NCBI GenBank assembly: GCA_030066685.1
Contig: JASJBF010000018.1
Location: 62,001 to 126,000, forward strand
Length of the DNA: 64,000 nt
Reading direction: 5' to 3'
Origin: Kiloniellales bacterium
Lineage (GTDB): Bacteria > Pseudomonadota > Alphaproteobacteria > Kiloniellales > JAKSBE01
The notes beneath the pieces are model-generated. The model ran no database searches, had not been told where the DNA came from, and saw only the letters and a list, made by a program, of their open reading frames with translations. Position numbers and translations under genes: made by a program. Below are positions 9,692 through 18,584 of this stretch, one piece after another. The first letter of the stretch is position 1. Every line of letters starts with the position of its first letter.

Positions 9692-9879
9692 GGTCGGAGA
9701 CTCGCGCAATTTCAGGTGGTTAGAAGAAAGCGCCCGCTGCCGGCGCGGCGCAGGGCCGGTCTGGAGGCAGGCCTTGCCTAGCACTTATTGCCGAGGCTCG
9801 GACTCAACCTCTTGTTAAGGTGCCCAACCTATTCTTCCAAAAGAATTAGTCATAATTGCAGCATGCGGGGTTAGGACAT

Positions 9880-10413
9880 ATGGCCGAAGACGCGGCGACG
9901 GCGGGCGAAGCCGAAATCGCGATGGAGGAGAAGAAGGGCGGGATGTCGGGCAAGAAGCTCGTGCTCTTCATCGTCCTGCCTCTGCTCCTCGTCTCCGGCG
10001 GCGGGGCCGCCGCCTTCTTCCTCGGCGCCCTGGACGGGCTGCTCGGCAAGGGCGCGCCGCCGCCCGAGGTCGCCGCCGTCGACCCCGCGGCGGCTCCGGC
10101 GGCCGGTGAGGGGGTCTTCTTCGACCTGCAGGAGATGCTGGTCAACCTCAACACCGGCGGGCGCAAGACCCACTACCTGAAGATCTCGGTCAGCCTCGAG
10201 GTCGGCTCGGAGGAGGACGTCCTCCAACTGCAGCGGGTCATGCCGCGCATCGTCGACAGCTTCCAGGTCTACCTGCGCGAGCTGCGCATCGAGGACCTGC
10301 ACGGCTCGGCGGGCCTGCAGCGCCTGCGCGAGGAGCTGCTGCTGCGGGTCAACTCGGCGGCCCAGCCGACCGTGGTCCGCGACGTGCTGTTCCGGGAAAT
10401 GCTGGTGCAATAG
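9880..10413 (+). CDS. fliL: Flagellar basal body-associated protein FliL
   Basis: A 177-residue protein starting MAEDAATAG, with AGGA five bases before the ATG. A single membrane helix (about residues 22-43, LVLFIVLPLLLVSGG) is followed by an Ala/Pro linker and the FliL periplasmic domain (FFDLQEMLVNLNTGG, YLKISVSLEV, and a C-terminal VRDVLFREMLVQ). FliL rings surround stator units and support torque. It starts the long motor operon; fliM follows after three bases. An in-frame ATG at 9856 lacks a ribosome site. Confidence 0.93.
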   Translation: MAEDAATAGEAEIAMEEKKGGMSGKKLVLFIVLPLLLVSGGGAAAFFLGALDGLLGKGAPPPEVAAVDPAAAPAAGEGVFFDLQEMLVNLNTGGRKTHYLKISVSLEVGSEEDVLQLQRVMPRIVDSFQVYLRELRIEDLHGSAGLQRLREELLLRVNSAAQPTVVRDVLFREMLVQ

Positions 10414-10416
10414 GCG

Positions 10417-11505
10417 ATGGCTGACGACGAAGAGATCCAGACCGAGGCCGCCGCGGGGGAGGGCGCCGGTGACCAGGACGCCCTGATGGCCGAATGGGAA
10501 GCCATGGCCGAGGGCGAGGGGGCGGGCGAGGACGGCTCCGCGCGGGTCCTGGACCAGAGCGAGATCGACAGCCTGCTGGGCCTCGAAGACGACGCGGCTG
10601 GGGCCGGCGACCGCTCGGGCGTCTTCGCCATCATCAACTCGGCCCTGGTGTCTTACGAGCGCCTGCCGATGCTCGAGGTGGTCTTCGACCGCCTGGTCCG
10701 GATGATGTCGACCTCGCTGCGCAACTTCACCTCCGACAATGTCGAGGTCAGCCTGGACACCATCACCTCGATCCGCTTCGGCGACTATCTGAATTCGATC
10801 CCTTTGCCGGCCATGCTGACCCTTTTCAAGGCCGAGGAATGGGACAACTACGGCCTGCTGACCGTGGACAGCGCCCTGATCTACTCCATCGTCGACGTCC
10901 TGCTCGGCGGCCGCCGCGGCACCGCTGCGATGCGCATCGAGGGCCGGCCCTACACCACGATCGAGCGCAACCTGGTCGAGCGCATGGTGACGGTGGTGCT
11001 CAACGACCTCTCGGCCGCCTTCGACCCGCTGTCGCCGGTGACCTTCCGCTTCGAGCGCCTGGAGATCAATCCGCGCTTTGCCGCCATTGCCCGGCCGGCC
11101 AACGCCGCCATCGTCGCCAAGCTGCGGGTCGACATGGAGGACCGCGGCGGCCGCATCGAGTTGCTGCTGCCCTATGCCACCCTGGAGCCGGTGCGCGAGC
11201 TGCTGCTGCAGATGTTCATGGGCGAGAAGTTCGGCCGGGACTCGATCTGGGAAGGCCATCTCACCTCCGAGCTCTGGCAGACCGAAGTGGAGATCGAGGC
11301 GGTGCTGGACGAGTTCGAGCTCAAGCTGGGCGACGTGATGAACTGGCAGGTCGGCAGCCAGCTCGAGCTCAACTGCGCGCCCAGCTCGAAGGTCGGGCTG
11401 CGCAGCGGCGAGGTCACGATGGCGCTGGGCAACATGGGCCGCAAAGGCGGCCACATCGCGGTCCAGATCACCGACAAGCTGGTGCGGGAGGGCGACATCG
11501 CATGA
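10417..11505 (+). CDS. fliM: Flagellar motor switch protein FliM
   Basis: A 362-residue protein. FliM normally begins with its CheY-binding peptide; here that peptide (LDQSEIDSLLG, residues 45-55) follows a 44-residue acidic extension. The middle CheC-like domain includes NSALVSYERLPMLEVVFDRL and YTTIERNLVERMVTVVLNDL. The C-terminal SpoA/FliN-like domain ends near KGGHIAVQITDKL. FliM is the switch-complex subunit that receives phosphorylated CheY. It is directly downstream of fliL and overlaps the next gene by four bases. Confidence 0.96.
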   Translation: MADDEEIQTEAAAGEGAGDQDALMAEWEAMAEGEGAGEDGSARVLDQSEIDSLLGLEDDAAGAGDRSGVFAIINSALVSYERLPMLEVVFDRLVRMMSTSLRNFTSDNVEVSLDTITSIRFGDYLNSIPLPAMLTLFKAEEWDNYGLLTVDSALIYSIVDVLLGGRRGTAAMRIEGRPYTTIERNLVERMVTVVLNDLSAAFDPLSPVTFRFERLEINPRFAAIARPANAAIVAKLRVDMEDRGGRIELLLPYATLEPVRELLLQMFMGEKFGRDSIWEGHLTSELWQTEVEIEAVLDEFELKLGDVMNWQVGSQLELNCAPSSKVGLRSGEVTMALGNMGRKGGHIAVQITDKLVREGDIA

Positions 11506-11976: not shown

Positions 11977-12600
11977 ATGAATCTCAGGCTCTTACCCCTG
12001 CTCATCGTCGCCGCGATGGTGATGCTGGGTGTGCGTGCCGGCGATCTCTGGCAAGGCCTCGCCCAGGCCGCAACCGCCGAGACCGCCGAAACTCAGGTCG
12101 CGCCGCCGCCGCCCGACACCCAGCCTGCGGCCGCCGGCGCCGAGCCGGCTCCCGCGGAGGTCCGGCCGGTCGACCCCTTCTCGCTGACCGACAGCGAGAT
12201 CGAGCTCCTGCAGAAGCTCTCGGCACGCCGGGAAGCGCTGGAGCAGCGCAGCCTGGAGCTGGAGCAGCGCGCGGTCCTGCTGAGCGCGGCCGAGGCCCGG
12301 ATCGAGGAACGCATCCAGGAACTCAAGGCGCTGCAGGCCAACATCGAAGGCATGATCGAGCAGCGCGACGAGAAGCAGGAGGCCCAGCTGCGCAGCCTGG
12401 TCAAGATCTACGAGAGCATGAAGCCCAAGGAGGCGGCGCGGATCTTCGAGGAGCTCGACATGACCGTCCTGCTCGAAGTCATCGACCGGATGAAAGAGCG
12501 CAAGTCGGCGCCGATCCTGGCCAAGATGAACCCCGACAAGGCCAAGGAGGTCACGGTCGAGCTCGCGGACAAGCACAAGCTGCCCCTGCGCCGCAACTGA
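11977..12600 (+). CDS. motE: MotE-like periplasmic motor chaperone
   Basis: A 207-residue protein with a signal or anchor helix (LLPLLIVAAMVMLGVRAG), a Pro/Ala linker, and a long coiled coil of about residues 70-140 (LSARREALEQRSLELEQR onward). The C-terminal segment YESMKPKEAARIFEELDM with APILAKMNPDKAKEV resembles the MgtE N-terminal fold. This layout matches MotE, which in Sinorhizobium stabilises the periplasmic motor protein MotC. No MotC is recognisable in this window, so the client may be the large TPR protein at the end of the operon (inference). Confidence 0.82.
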   Translation: MNLRLLPLLIVAAMVMLGVRAGDLWQGLAQAATAETAETQVAPPPPDTQPAAAGAEPAPAEVRPVDPFSLTDSEIELLQKLSARREALEQRSLELEQRAVLLSAAEARIEERIQELKALQANIEGMIEQRDEKQEAQLRSLVKIYESMKPKEAARIFEELDMTVLLEVIDRMKERKSAPILAKMNPDKAKEVTVELADKHKLPLRRN

Positions 12601-13798: not shown

Positions 13799-14488
13799 AT
13801 GAGCCGGGCTGCAACGCCGCACCAGGGTGTGCAGAAGGACCCGAACATCGTCGCCCTGCTCAGCCTGCAGCTGCTGCTCCTGGCCTTCTTCATTCTTTTG
13901 AACGCCCTGTCCAAGTTCGAGGATGAGAAGACGCGCCGGGTCCTGGAGAGCGTGAACGACACCTTCAACGGCCAGGTGCAAGCGGTGCGCAACGCCGCCA
14001 GTTACAGCGGCGCGATCGGCAGCCTGGACGACGGCCGCAGCCTGGTGGCCGAGCTGAAGCGGCTCTTTACCTCGGCGCTGCCGGCGACCCGCGTCGAGCA
14101 GACCTCCCGGGCCAACGTCTTCCGTCTCGAGCTGCCCGCGACGAAGCTCTTCGAGGCCGGCAGCGTCGAGCTGCGCAGCGGCCGGCTGGGTCTGCTCGAG
14201 CGGATCAGCGATGCGCTCAAGCGGCGCCAGGCTCGGGGCCAGGGCTTCCGCCTGCGCTGGCTGCACGGGGTCGCCTCGACCCGCGAGCGGCGCCTCGCGG
14301 CGCCGGCGCCGAGCCTGCTCGAGATCCGCCGGCTCGGCCAGGTAATCGACGAGCTCCTGGCGCGCGGGGTCGCGGCGGACCGCCTGGCGATCGGTGTCGA
14401 GCCGATCGGCGAGGGCCGCATGGTGCTCGAGATCCGCCTGCCCGAAGGCCCCGGGACCGCCGGGGAGACCGGGGAGCAGAGGCGATGA
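13799..14488 (+). CDS. MotB-like protein lacking the proton-channel aspartate
   Basis: A 229-residue protein with one N-terminal membrane helix (NIVALLSLQLLLLAFFILL) and a periplasmic region with weak OmpA/MotB-like character. Aligned on the conserved helix end (ALSKFE against AMSRVE in the next gene), the essential MotB aspartate position is Ser22. It therefore probably cannot carry protons alone and may be an accessory or partner subunit. It overlaps the next motB-like gene by four bases. The family assignment is from layout and synteny. Confidence 0.7.
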   Translation: MSRAATPHQGVQKDPNIVALLSLQLLLLAFFILLNALSKFEDEKTRRVLESVNDTFNGQVQAVRNAASYSGAIGSLDDGRSLVAELKRLFTSALPATRVEQTSRANVFRLELPATKLFEAGSVELRSGRLGLLERISDALKRRQARGQGFRLRWLHGVASTRERRLAAPAPSLLEIRRLGQVIDELLARGVAADRLAIGVEPIGEGRMVLEIRLPEGPGTAGETGEQRR

Positions 14489-15255
14489 GCGACGACCACC
14501 GGGAAGACGACGAGCCCGTCGAGGAGCCGGTCGTCCTGGCCTCGGCGCCGCTTTTCGGCGGGGCCGCCGCCGCCCAGCCGGACAACAGCCAGGCCTGGAT
14601 GGTCACCTTCGCCGATCTGGTGGCCCTGCTGCTCACCTTCTTCGTCCTGCTCTTCGCCATGTCGCGGGTAGAAACCCGCGACTGGCAGAACCTGGTCGAC
14701 GCCCTGTCCCAGAGCCTGAACCGGATCAGCGAGAGCCGGATCGCGGTCCCCGACGTCGACCTCGACCTGAAGAGGGTTCAGCCGGTGCCGGGCGCCAACC
14801 TCGACTACCTCAGCACGGTGCTGCGCGACCAGATGGCGGGCCACACGGTCCTGTCCCGCGCCGTGCTTCGGCGCCAGGACGAGCTGCTGATCATCTCCCT
14901 GCCGGCCGACCTGCTGTTCGCGCCGGGCTCAGTCGAGCCCGCGGCCCGGGCCGACGATGCGCTCTTCGCGATCTGCGGGGTCCTGCGAAACCTGGAGAAC
15001 CGGATCGAGATCGCCGGGCACGCCGATCCGACGCCCCCGGGCGCCCGCTGGCCCTCGAACTGGAACCTTTCGCTCGGCCGCGCGCTCTCGGTCGCCGCGC
15101 GCCTGCAGGGCAACTGCTACCGCAAGGACGTGGTCGCCCTCGGCTTCGGCGACGCCAGGTTTGCCGACCTGCCGGCCGGCCTGCCCAGCGCCCAGCGCCG
15201 CGCCCTCGCGCGCCGGGTCGACATCGTCATCCACGAGACCGCGGCGCGGAAATGA
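14485..15255 (+). CDS. motB: OmpA-domain MotB-like stator protein
   Basis: A 256-residue protein with an acidic, cytosolic first 35 residues. The membrane helix WMVTFADLVALLLTFFVLL contains the channel aspartate (Asp44) as in MotB. The C-terminal OmpA/MotB peptidoglycan-binding domain shows IEIAGHADPTPPG and WNLSLGRALSVAARL. It would anchor a stator to the cell wall and conduct ions with a MotA partner. No motA is in the window. It is coupled to the preceding Asp-less paralogue and to the TPR gene by ATGA overlaps. Confidence 0.85.
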   Translation: MSDDHREDDEPVEEPVVLASAPLFGGAAAAQPDNSQAWMVTFADLVALLLTFFVLLFAMSRVETRDWQNLVDALSQSLNRISESRIAVPDVDLDLKRVQPVPGANLDYLSTVLRDQMAGHTVLSRAVLRRQDELLIISLPADLLFAPGSVEPAARADDALFAICGVLRNLENRIEIAGHADPTPPGARWPSNWNLSLGRALSVAARLQGNCYRKDVVALGFGDARFADLPAGLPSAQRRALARRVDIVIHETAARK

Positions 15256-18200
15256 TGCAGCGACCGGCCGTCCTGCTCCTGGTCCTGCTGCTCGGCTTGC
15301 TACCGCCGCCGCCGGCCGCTGCGCAGGACCCGATCCGGGTGCGCGGCGGCGTCCATGCCGACTACGTCCGAATGGTCTTCGACTGGCCGGCGCCGGTGAG
15401 CTATACGGCGCGGATTGAGGTCGGACGCCTGGTCCTGCTCTTTCCGAAGGGGCACAGCTTCGACTTCGCCCCGGCCCGCAGGATCCTCCGCAAGTACCTG
15501 ATTCTGCCGGACGGTGCGGTGGGTGGCCGCCGTCTGGCCTTCCCGCTGCTGGGCGACTTCGAGCTGCGCCACTTCACGAGCGGGCCGCGGGTGGTCGTCG
15601 ACCTGCTGCGCCGGCCCAAGGCGGACCCCAAGCCTGCCGAACCCAAGCCTGCCGAACCCAAGCCTGCCGAAGCCAAGCCCGCCGAAGCCAGGCCCGCCGA
15701 GGCCGCCCCGAAGCCGAGCGAGGCCCCGGCGGCCAGGGACATGGCGGCAGGGAAGGCCGCCGAGCCGGCCGCTGCGCGGCCCGCGATCACCGTGCGGGTT
15801 GGCCGGCATCCCGGCTACGGCCGCCTGGTCTTCGACTGGCCGGAGGCCGTGCCCTACCGGGTCAGCGCCGAGGCCGGCCAGGTCCGGCTCAGCTTTGGCC
15901 GGGCGGCGAGCTTCGACCTGGGTGGGCTCAGGCGCCGGCTGCCGCCCCAGGTCCGGGACCTGGAGGTGGCCTTTGCGCCCGACGGCATGACGGTGACCCT
16001 GACCGTCCCGCCTGCGGCCAAGGTCCGGCACTTCACCTCGGGCCCCAAGGTAGCGCTGGACATCCTGCACGACGGCAAGGCCTCGGCGACGGCGGCGCCG
16101 AAGCGGGCCGCGAAAGCCCCGACGCCCCTCACCAAGCCGCGGCCCGGGCGCAAGGCCGCCTCGGGCCGGCCCCCGGCCACGCGCGGCGAAGCGCTGCGCG
16201 CCGCGGCAGCGACGGTGACCCGGCGCCTGCCGCCCGAGGACCAGGCCCGGCCGCTGCCCGGACCGCAGGCCCCGCCGGCGCCAGAGATCTCGATCCAGCT
16301 GCCCTGGACCCGCGGCGCCAAGGCGGCCGCCTTCCGGCGGGGCAAGAACGTCTGGCTGGCCTTCGACCGCAAGGCGCCCGAGGGCCTGCGCGAAGGCTTC
16401 GCGCCCGAGTTCGGGCCCCTGAAGCGGATCGACCAGGCGGGCGGCACGCTGCTCCACTTCGAGGCGCCGGCCGGGTTCGAGCCGGCGCTGCGCCGGGTCG
16501 ACGGCCTCTGGACGGTCAAGCTGCACCGCCGGCCGGTCGCGCCCCTGCGGGGGCTGAAGGCGAAGTTCAGCGACGACCTCCGCGCCATGCTGGTGCCGCT
16601 CGGCGGCGCCGGGCCGGTCTTCCAGGTCACCGATCCCAGCTTCGGCGACCGGCTCTTCGTCGTGCCCGTCGCCGGACAGGGGCTGGGCGCCGGGGTCGAA
16701 CGGGCGCTGCCTGAGTTCCACATCCTGCCGGCTTTCCAGGGCCTGGTGATCCAGACCCTGTCGGATGCCATCCGGGTCGCGCGCAACCGGGACGAGGTGA
16801 TGCTGACCGGCCGCGGTCCCCTCACTTTGGCCGGCGGCACGATCGACCTCGCCACCGAGGAGGCGGCGCAGCCCCAGCGGCCGCGGCTCCTCGACCTCGT
16901 GGCCTGGCGCGGGCCGAAGGGCGAGGCCTTCACCAGCTTGCGCCAGAAGCGCCAGAGCGCCGTGGTCGCCGCACGGCCGCGGGCCAAGCCGAGTGCGCGC
17001 CTGGAGCTGGCCCGCTTTCTCTTCGCCCACGGCTTCGCCAGCGAGGCCCTGGGGCATCTCGAGGGCGTCCTGCGCGAGCGGCCGGACCTGGCCCGCTCGC
17101 CCCAGGTCGTGCTGATGCGGGCGGCCGCCCGTTTCCTGCGCGACGACTTCGAGGCCGCGGCCAAGATCCTCGACGACCCCGGCCTCGCCGGCGAGTGGGA
17201 GGCCGAGCTCTGGCGCGCCGCCGTGGCGGCGCGGGCGCAGGACTGGGAAGCCGCCGCCTCCGGCTTCGCCCGGACCGCCGGTCTGATCGCCGACTATCCC
17301 CCGCTCGTTCGCGCCCGCCTGTGGCTGCTGGCCGCGGAAGCCGCCCTGCAGAACGGCAACACGGCGGTCGCCAGCGAGCGCCTTGCGGAGCTGGCGGCCG
17401 ACCGTCCGCCGCAGGGCCAGCAGGACCGGCTCCGCTTCCTCCAGGGCCTCAGGGCCGAGATCGACGGCGACGCGGCGAGCGCGCGCCGGATCTGGAAGCA
17501 GGTCGCCCAGGGCCAGGACCGGCCGGCCCGGGCCCGGGCCCGGCTGGCGCTGGTCGACCTCGATCTGGCGCAGAAGAAGATCAGCCCGGAAGAGGCGATC
17601 GCGGAGTTGGAGCGCTTGCGCTTCGCGTGGCGCGGCGACTACTTCGAGTTCGCCCTGCTGGAGCGGCTGGCCGACCTCTACCTTGGCCAGCTCGATTACC
17701 GCAAGGCCCTGAACATGCTTCGCCAGACCGCGTCCTACCTGAAGGATTTCCGGCGCTCGGAGGCGGTCGGGCAGAAGATGCGGGCGATCTTCGCGCAGGT
17801 CTACCTGGGCGGCGGCGGCGACAAGCTGCCGCCCCTGACCGCGCTCGGTCTCTACGAGGATTTCCGCGAGCTGACCCCGGTCGGCGCGGAGGGCGACCGC
17901 ATGATCGCCGCGCTGGCCGACCGTCTGGTCGAGGTCGATCTGCTCGACGAGGCCGGCGACCTGCTGCAGGCGCAGGTGAAGGATCGCCTCTCGGGGCGCG
18001 AGAAGGCCCGGGTCGGCGCCCGGCTGGCGCTGATCCGCCTGCTCGACACGGCGCCCGCCGAGGCCCTGAAGGCCCTGGACGCCAGCGCTGCGCGCGGCCT
18101 GCCGGCGGATCTGGACCGGGAGCGGCGCTACCTCCGCGCCAAGGCCCTGGCCGGGGTCAACCGCGGCGCCGAAGCCCTGAAGATCATCGAGGCCGAGACC

Positions 18201-18584
18201 TCGCGGGCGGCGCTGGAGCTGCGGGCCGAGATCGAGACCAAGCTGGGCCGCTGGGCGGCGGTCGCGAAGACCCTGTCGCGCCTGCTGCCCGAGACGCCGG
18301 CCGAGGGCGAGCTCCCTCCGGAGCCGGGCCGCAAGACCATCCTCAGCGTGGCGGTCGCGCTCACCCTGGCCAAGGACCGGGCCGGCCTGCAGGCCTTGAA
18401 GCAGCGTTTCGGCGCGAGCATGGCGCGGACCGCCGAGCGCGAGACCTTCGCCCTGCTGGTCGACGCCGAGGCCGGCGGCGGCGCGCCGATCGCCGAGGTC
18501 CTGAGCCGCGCCGGCCACGCCGAGGCCTTCCTTGCCTCCTACCGGAAGCGCCTGGCCGACGGCCAGCTCAGCGAGCTGAACTAG
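15252..18584 (+). CDS. Large periplasmic TPR protein with AMIN-like repeats
   Basis: A 1110-residue protein beginning MMQRPAVLLLVLLLGLL with a signal peptide ending near AAAQD. Two similar N-terminal modules of about 100 residues share RLVFDWP-like and RHFTSGP(R/K)V motifs and resemble AMIN or related envelope-binding domains; a PKPAE-repeat linker separates them. A third diverged copy lies near residues 350-430. The C-terminal 550 residues are helical TPR-like repeats. It overlaps motB and closes the fliL-to-motB operon, so a periplasmic motor scaffold is likely (inference). Its stop codon TAG is the first three bases of a palindrome. Confidence 0.85.
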   Translation: MMQRPAVLLLVLLLGLLPPPPAAAQDPIRVRGGVHADYVRMVFDWPAPVSYTARIEVGRLVLLFPKGHSFDFAPARRILRKYLILPDGAVGGRRLAFPLLGDFELRHFTSGPRVVVDLLRRPKADPKPAEPKPAEPKPAEAKPAEARPAEAAPKPSEAPAARDMAAGKAAEPAAARPAITVRVGRHPGYGRLVFDWPEAVPYRVSAEAGQVRLSFGRAASFDLGGLRRRLPPQVRDLEVAFAPDGMTVTLTVPPAAKVRHFTSGPKVALDILHDGKASATAAPKRAAKAPTPLTKPRPGRKAASGRPPATRGEALRAAAATVTRRLPPEDQARPLPGPQAPPAPEISIQLPWTRGAKAAAFRRGKNVWLAFDRKAPEGLREGFAPEFGPLKRIDQAGGTLLHFEAPAGFEPALRRVDGLWTVKLHRRPVAPLRGLKAKFSDDLRAMLVPLGGAGPVFQVTDPSFGDRLFVVPVAGQGLGAGVERALPEFHILPAFQGLVIQTLSDAIRVARNRDEVMLTGRGPLTLAGGTIDLATEEAAQPQRPRLLDLVAWRGPKGEAFTSLRQKRQSAVVAARPRAKPSARLELARFLFAHGFASEALGHLEGVLRERPDLARSPQVVLMRAAARFLRDDFEAAAKILDDPGLAGEWEAELWRAAVAARAQDWEAAASGFARTAGLIADYPPLVRARLWLLAAEAALQNGNTAVASERLAELAADRPPQGQQDRLRFLQGLRAEIDGDAASARRIWKQVAQGQDRPARARARLALVDLDLAQKKISPEEAIAELERLRFAWRGDYFEFALLERLADLYLGQLDYRKALNMLRQTASYLKDFRRSEAVGQKMRAIFAQVYLGGGGDKLPPLTALGLYEDFRELTPVGAEGDRMIAALADRLVEVDLLDEAGDLLQAQVKDRLSGREKARVGARLALIRLLDTAPAEALKALDASAARGLPADLDRERRYLRAKALAGVNRGAEALKIIEAETSRAALELRAEIETKLGRWAAVAKTLSRLLPETPAEGELPPEPGRKTILSVAVALTLAKDRAGLQALKQRFGASMARTAERETFALLVDAEAGGGAPIAEVLSRAGHAEAFLASYRKRLADGQLSELN
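15627..15701 (+). repeat. 15-bp coding minisatellite (PKPAE repeats)
   Basis: Three perfect copies of CCCAAGCCTGCCGAA (15627-15671) are followed by two diverged copies. The unit is five codons, so copy-number changes would lengthen or shorten the linker between the two AMIN-like modules without shifting frame. Confidence 0.9.

Follow-up and report, generated by a model that had tools for sequence, protein, structure and literature searches.

Within the window, by which we mean the whole stretch of 64,000 nucleotides that was analysed, a flagellar operon contains two overlapping genes that both resemble the gene of the stator subunit MotB, and only the second of them encodes the Asp of the ion site. 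This raises the question of what the first protein (B') does beside the second (B). The operon runs on the + strand in the order fliL, fliM, a DUF6468 gene, a MotE-like gene, cheY, cheZ, B', B and a gene for a large, MotK-like periplasmic protein. B' and B overlap by 4 bp, as do B and the MotK-like gene. The features are as follows:

9856 to 10413, + strand: FliL, in the operon of B' and B (open reading frame, neighbourhood)
10417 to 11505, + strand: FliM, in the same operon (open reading frame, neighbourhood)
11977 to 12600, + strand: MotE-like periplasmic protein, in the same operon (Pfam match MgtE_N; named by comparison with the accessible parts of PMC10954123 and PMC13023049)
13138 to 13791, + strand: CheZ, directly 5' of B' (open reading frame, Pfam)
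13799 to 14488, + strand: B', a MotB/PomB-type stator B paralogue of 229 aa without the ion-site Asp (open reading frame, Pfam, structure model, family profile, conservation)
13847 to 13912, + strand: transmembrane helix of B', residues 17-38 (family alignment, model)
13862 to 13864, + strand: codon of Ser22 of B', equivalent of the MotB/PomB ion-site Asp (profile-profile alignment)
14485 to 15255, + strand: B, a PomB/MotB-type stator B subunit of 256 aa with ion-site Asp and OmpA domain (open reading frame, Pfam, matches to structure chains)
14614 to 14616, + strand: codon of Asp44, the ion-site Asp of B (alignment)
15252 to 18584, + strand: MotK-like periplasmic protein of 1110 aa, AMIN-like beta-sandwiches followed by a TPR superhelix (open reading frame, model, accessible parts of PMC10954123 and PMC13023049)

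Relationship of B' and B to stator subunits

The original prediction had described the two genes as a MotB-like pair, and the comparison with the MotB and OmpA families bears this out: MotB_plug was matched by both proteins and OmpA by B only. For B, the Pfam scores were 56.9 bits (MotB_plug) and 32.4 bits (OmpA), and solved PomB and MotB chains were matched across the helix and the OmpA domain, so that B carries the helix with its Asp, the plug region and the OmpA domain of a stator B subunit. B' scored 23.9 bits for MotB_plug against a cut-off of 24, and 26.3 bits, above the cut-off, in the whole-genome search. A search of B' for the OmpA signature (Pfam, E up to 1) gave no match, which makes wall binding by B' doubtful.

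When the B' family was aligned to the B family by their profiles, the match had a probability of 98% and an E value of 2e-13; the helix was aligned without gaps and Ser22 of B' stood opposite Asp44 of B, as had been predicted from the two sequences. The B' profile also found solved MotB chains (best E 4.2e-6). An AlphaFold2 model of B', built from an alignment of 54 of the 81 B' rows (mean pLDDT 79), shows a single long N-terminal helix of the MotB type (residues 15-56), followed by an OmpA-like domain. This model matched PA0833 (Z 14.7), the periplasmic PomB fragment 3wpw (Z 12.4) and MotS (Z 12.2), which disposes of the concern that B' might be unrelated to MotB. Nor has its Asp moved within the helix: among 146 rows no displaced Asp or Glu recurs, the only recurring charged residue being a Lys at site +2 (24 of 146 rows).

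The helix and plug form the best-conserved part of B', with a mean entropy of 2.05 bits in the class set (defined below) versus 3.03 bits in the rest of the periplasmic part. The helix phenylalanines are almost invariant, and Ser51 and Phe56 of the plug region are among the most conserved residues. A chance likeness between hydrophobic helices was considered and ruled out by the family conservation and the profile match. Both B' and B are proteins of the MotB/PomB type, in which a lone membrane helix and a plug region are combined with a periplasmic fold like that of OmpA.

Conservation of the pair and of the ion site

The B'/B pair is conserved across Alphaproteobacteria. Homologues of B' were found in 48 of 58 relatives (E≤1e-20) and in 93 of the 389 class genomes covered by the search (E≤1e-15; those without a match are listed in part). 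In addition, a scan of named genomes, based on a helix motif that spans residues 25-33 and leaves the Asp site outside, yielded 106 confirmed loci, of which the best 80 were analysed; the hosts include Kiloniella, Thalassospira, Rhodovibrio, Roseospira and Kordiimonadales. Among these best 80 of 106, B' was present in all and B lay directly 3' of it in 79, the sole other locus (L067) being one where the contig ends. A possible start of B lies at most 10 bp from the stop of B' in 78 of the 79, with a 4-bp overlap in 45. Plasmid sequences, searched to find a laboratory host that bears a name, gave no match.

At the ion site, the B' proteins of the best 80 of 106 named loci plus the window have Ser (59), Ala (14) or Gly (8), while all 80 B rows of the named loci have Asp. 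The class set, made up of 60 regions fetched from the 93 class genomes with B' and six more loci, gave a similar distribution, with Ser in 41, Gly in 15, Ala in 7 and Asp in 2 of 65 B' rows, and Asp in 63 of 64 B rows (one ambiguous). Some loci occur twice (L166 is L192, and L187 and L188 of the class set repeat L093 and L090 of the named loci); counted as 143 distinct B' rows, the site is Ser in 98, Gly in 22, Ala in 20 and Asp in 3, hence Ser, Gly or Ala in 140. One member of the pair was missing in three of the 66 class-set loci: at L209 the contig breaks off, two genes at L245 are both B-like, and in L233 the B gene lies apart from B'. The last locus belongs to genome G156 (L233 and L278; C2:190544-197201), in which B' and B are about 6 kb apart and both retained, B' directly after a cheZ-like gene.

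Such conservation excludes chance, and it also makes it highly improbable that B' is a functionless duplicate in decay that is merely carried along with the operon. The missing catalytic residue and the variable periplasmic part would suit a decaying gene, but not its retention in so many relatives and class genomes, its nearly constant helix phenylalanines, or its survival in a pair that has been split.

Asp-bearing B' proteins were observed at L223 (G084), L239 (G408) and L245 (G226, where it is the first gene of the locus), and the Trp six residues before the Asp is also present in them. Judging from these residues, both B genes look active at the three loci. These proteins are basal in the full tree and represent three separate changes in a tree of the periplasmic part only; gene conversion by the B sequence is possible, and so is the persistence of an earlier state. 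Their existence indicates that loss of the Asp is not strictly required everywhere. In G351, G164 and G064, B' matches of one family contain one in-frame TGA, where the match possibly just extends beyond the stop codon.

The sequences were also inspected for a sign that B' and B contact each other, guided by the dimer interface residues of E. coli MotB given in the accessible part of PMC10659934. The two proteins differ consistently there: at interface site -1, Leu predominates in B' and Ala, Thr or Gly in B, and at site +13 most B' proteins have Asn or Thr and most B proteins Phe or Tyr. The B'/B residue sizes at +13/+13, the equivalent of E. coli W45, are correlated with r -0.50 over 142 distinct pairs, the strongest negative correlation among 624 column pairs, and two families (L244, L167) show reciprocal large/small swaps at this site. 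As a pairing signal this correlation is suggestive only, being a post hoc result uncorrected for relatedness that leans on the long-branch rows L244 and L167.

Alternatively, B' might have a regulatory role and be paired with B before assembly only, for instance to hold the channel closed up to the moment of docking, after which a second B would replace it. The conserved Ser51 and Phe56 of its plug region would fit such a role, as would the fact that B alone has all the features of PomB. On the other hand, translational coupling and constant pairing suggest that B' and B are made in similar amounts, and we know of no mechanism for exchanging B' against a second B. We therefore regard this explanation as unlikely.

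The A subunit and gene strings of a second class

The claim that no motA is nearby was correct for the window, in which none was found, but not for the contig: a PomA-like motA lies on the same contig (C18), 43 kb from the B'/B pair. It adjoins a FliN gene and a gene that reads as a regulator of the sigma-54 type. Among solved stators PomA was its best match (E 3.5e-57, alignment residues 27-275), with MotA at E 4.8e-42 and weaker. A canonical motA-motB pair is also present (C41:12875-16168, L003), which gives the organism a second stator set, and a genome without a motA partner is ruled out. Other candidates were discarded. A MotA_ExbB match on contig C2 reads, from the translations, as a TolQ/ExbB type gene followed by TolR/ExbD-like and TonB/TolA-like genes, and two ExbB/MotA-like loci (C1:364377-367730, L004; C24:29998-33294, L005) are unlike motA and have surroundings that do not look flagellar.

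The PomA-like motA and B' tend to occur together. Among the 58 relatives, 46 have a strong B' and this motA, nine have neither, two have B' only (G043, 59% complete, and G055) and one has motA only; in the latter (G006) the end of B' sits at a contig edge, so that it is no real exception. Among the 389 class genomes, both genes were found in 92 and only eight were discordant, one with B' only and seven with motA only. Fisher's p for this co-occurrence is 1e-79, calculated without regard to relatedness and with E-value cut-offs (1e-15 for B', 1e-56 for motA) that were set after the lists had been seen. Six of the eight discordant genomes could be explained: G081, G247 and G306 have a divergent B'/B pair, while the missing pair is uninformative in G261, whose contig ends shortly 3' of fliM, and in G088 and G320, in which fliM was not found either. 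G161 is a true exception, with fliM, the DUF6468 gene, motE, motK and this motA present and no B'/B between them, and G098, the sole B'-only genome of the class, is 95% complete and has no motA match. Weaker relatives of the motA adjoin a single B gene in the genomes inspected, for example G436, G215 and G132.

When 396 genomes of the phylum were searched, pairs turned up in a family of a different class (f161). In all 12 f161 loci examined the genes form the string motA-B'-B, with Glu (10) or Gln (2) at the B' site and Asp in B in 12 of 12. The ion site of E. coli MotB is partly tolerant of Glu. The gene fliL comes next in eight of the 12 loci, and the other four fetched stretches end less than 400 bases past B. 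Genome G447 (family f162; L258:291-2648) has motA followed by two B genes with Asp in both, a natural A-B-B string. The loci of both families keep an A gene together with two B genes, unlike the layout in the window. In a free tree the B' proteins of the two classes are apart, while a constrained tree that joins them is higher-scoring and not rejected (p-AU 0.82); a single and a double origin of B' are both compatible with the trees.

A candidate A5-B-B' stator and its likely scaffold

The gene that follows B encodes a protein whose model (pLDDT 82, from an alignment of 38 rows) consists of beta-sandwiches and then helical repeats (residues 549-1071) that form a TPR superhelix. Although its AMIN-like Pfam match is under the cut-off, this order of AMIN-like domain(s) and TPR superhelix is that of MotK. 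In Foldseek the model was matched best by a chain of 9HMF, the motor scaffold of Campylobacter (chain K, E 1.9e-9), which we take to be PflA; the superhelix also matches many unrelated TPR proteins. A MotK/PflA-like gene was observed 3' of B in most of the best 80 of 106 named loci. The protein is likely a stator scaffold of these motors. MotK is grouped with PflA in the accessible part of the review PMC13023049, and in the Fla2 system of Cereibacter sphaeroides MotK and MotE bind MotB2 and are required for rotation, according to the available text of PMC10954123.

The company of these scaffold genes is relevant to the accessory anchor that the original prediction had also considered. B' could be a dimer of its own, or be bound to the scaffold (MotK, MotE or FliL), and hold or recruit an A5-B2 stator, its helix being merely a membrane anchor. 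B' does share its operon with MotE- and MotK-like genes, whose C. sphaeroides counterparts bind MotB2 and are needed for rotation, and its OmpA-like domain, given the missing Pfam match, may bind a protein instead of the wall. For a mere anchor, however, there is no need for a helix and plug that are more conserved than the remainder and align to the helix of a stator B subunit, or for a place between motA and B in the stator string of the second class. We consider an anchor possible but doubtful.

The reading that we regard as rather probable, from the sequence comparisons taken together, is that B' and B together make up the central dimer of a single stator, A5-B-B', each as one half, alongside the PomA-like MotA. 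The original prediction had raised a heteromeric stator with an inactive partner as a possibility, and this is favoured by the joint occurrence of B' and B, their co-occurrence with one PomA-like motA and the motA-B'-B strings. The A ring would be formed by the MotA encoded 43 kb away, and B' would contribute the second set of transmembrane helix, plug and periplasmic domain, while the ion-binding Asp would come from B only. The resulting 5:2 rotary motor would work with one ion site rather than two and be tied to the periplasmic MotK/MotE scaffold of the same operon; what we infer here is the heterodimer of B and B', the presence of just one ion site in each unit and its contact with the scaffold. 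Several observations speak against A5-B-B': B looks like a complete PomB and could homodimerise alone, the motA of the window genome is not beside the pair, G161 has motA, motE and motK without the pair, three B' proteins carry the Asp, and B' has no Pfam OmpA match.

Whether A5-B-B' represents a widespread class of flagellar stator with a single Asp, which would let through about 5 ions for each full turn of its A ring, in steps of 72 degrees, is in our view an evenly balanced question; if so, the stages Asp/Asp, Glu/Asp, Gln/Asp and Ser-Gly-Ala/Asp would be preserved in living lineages. In the 5:2 motor as described in the accessible part of PMC9389320, an ion is exchanged between two equivalent Asp sites of the two B subunits, with 36-degree steps and 10 ions for each turn, as is assumed for every 5:2 motor. 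The two-site symmetry would be lost in a unit with a single Asp, in conflict with this published figure, and a stator that by nature has one Asp in each dimer would offer a direct test of the two-site model without engineered mutants. It would also show how half of a motor becomes free to do something else, for instance to contact the scaffold, and many genes annotated plainly as MotB would then encode subunits that do not carry ions.

The literature searched, which included few subscription papers, gave no earlier account of two paired B proteins of which one is inactive. Compared with the PomA/PomB stator (PDB 8BRI, 8ZYV), the distant motA and B match and B' has the same periplasmic fold, but the window genome has an additional B gene that lacks the ion-site Asp, and its motA is unlinked from the B genes; in most genomes B is directly 3' of A, as stated in the available text of PMC12505986. 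The AglRQS gliding motor of Myxococcus likewise combines one A-type gene with two B-type genes, but there, according to the accessible part of PMC9389320, the Asp is present in both B proteins, whose heterodimerisation is given as unknown, and the motor drives gliding rather than a flagellum. The third gene's model gives a structural match to the Campylobacter scaffold, in the chain that we take to be PflA (PDB 9HMF; PMC7990780, and PMC13023049 as far as accessible). The Fla2 system of C. sphaeroides likewise has a periplasmic AMIN-plus-TPR protein and MotE among its flagellar genes, but in the accessible part of PMC10954123 one B protein is named (MotB2) and no B' partner. The MotK-like protein of the window is larger than the published C. 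sphaeroides MotK.
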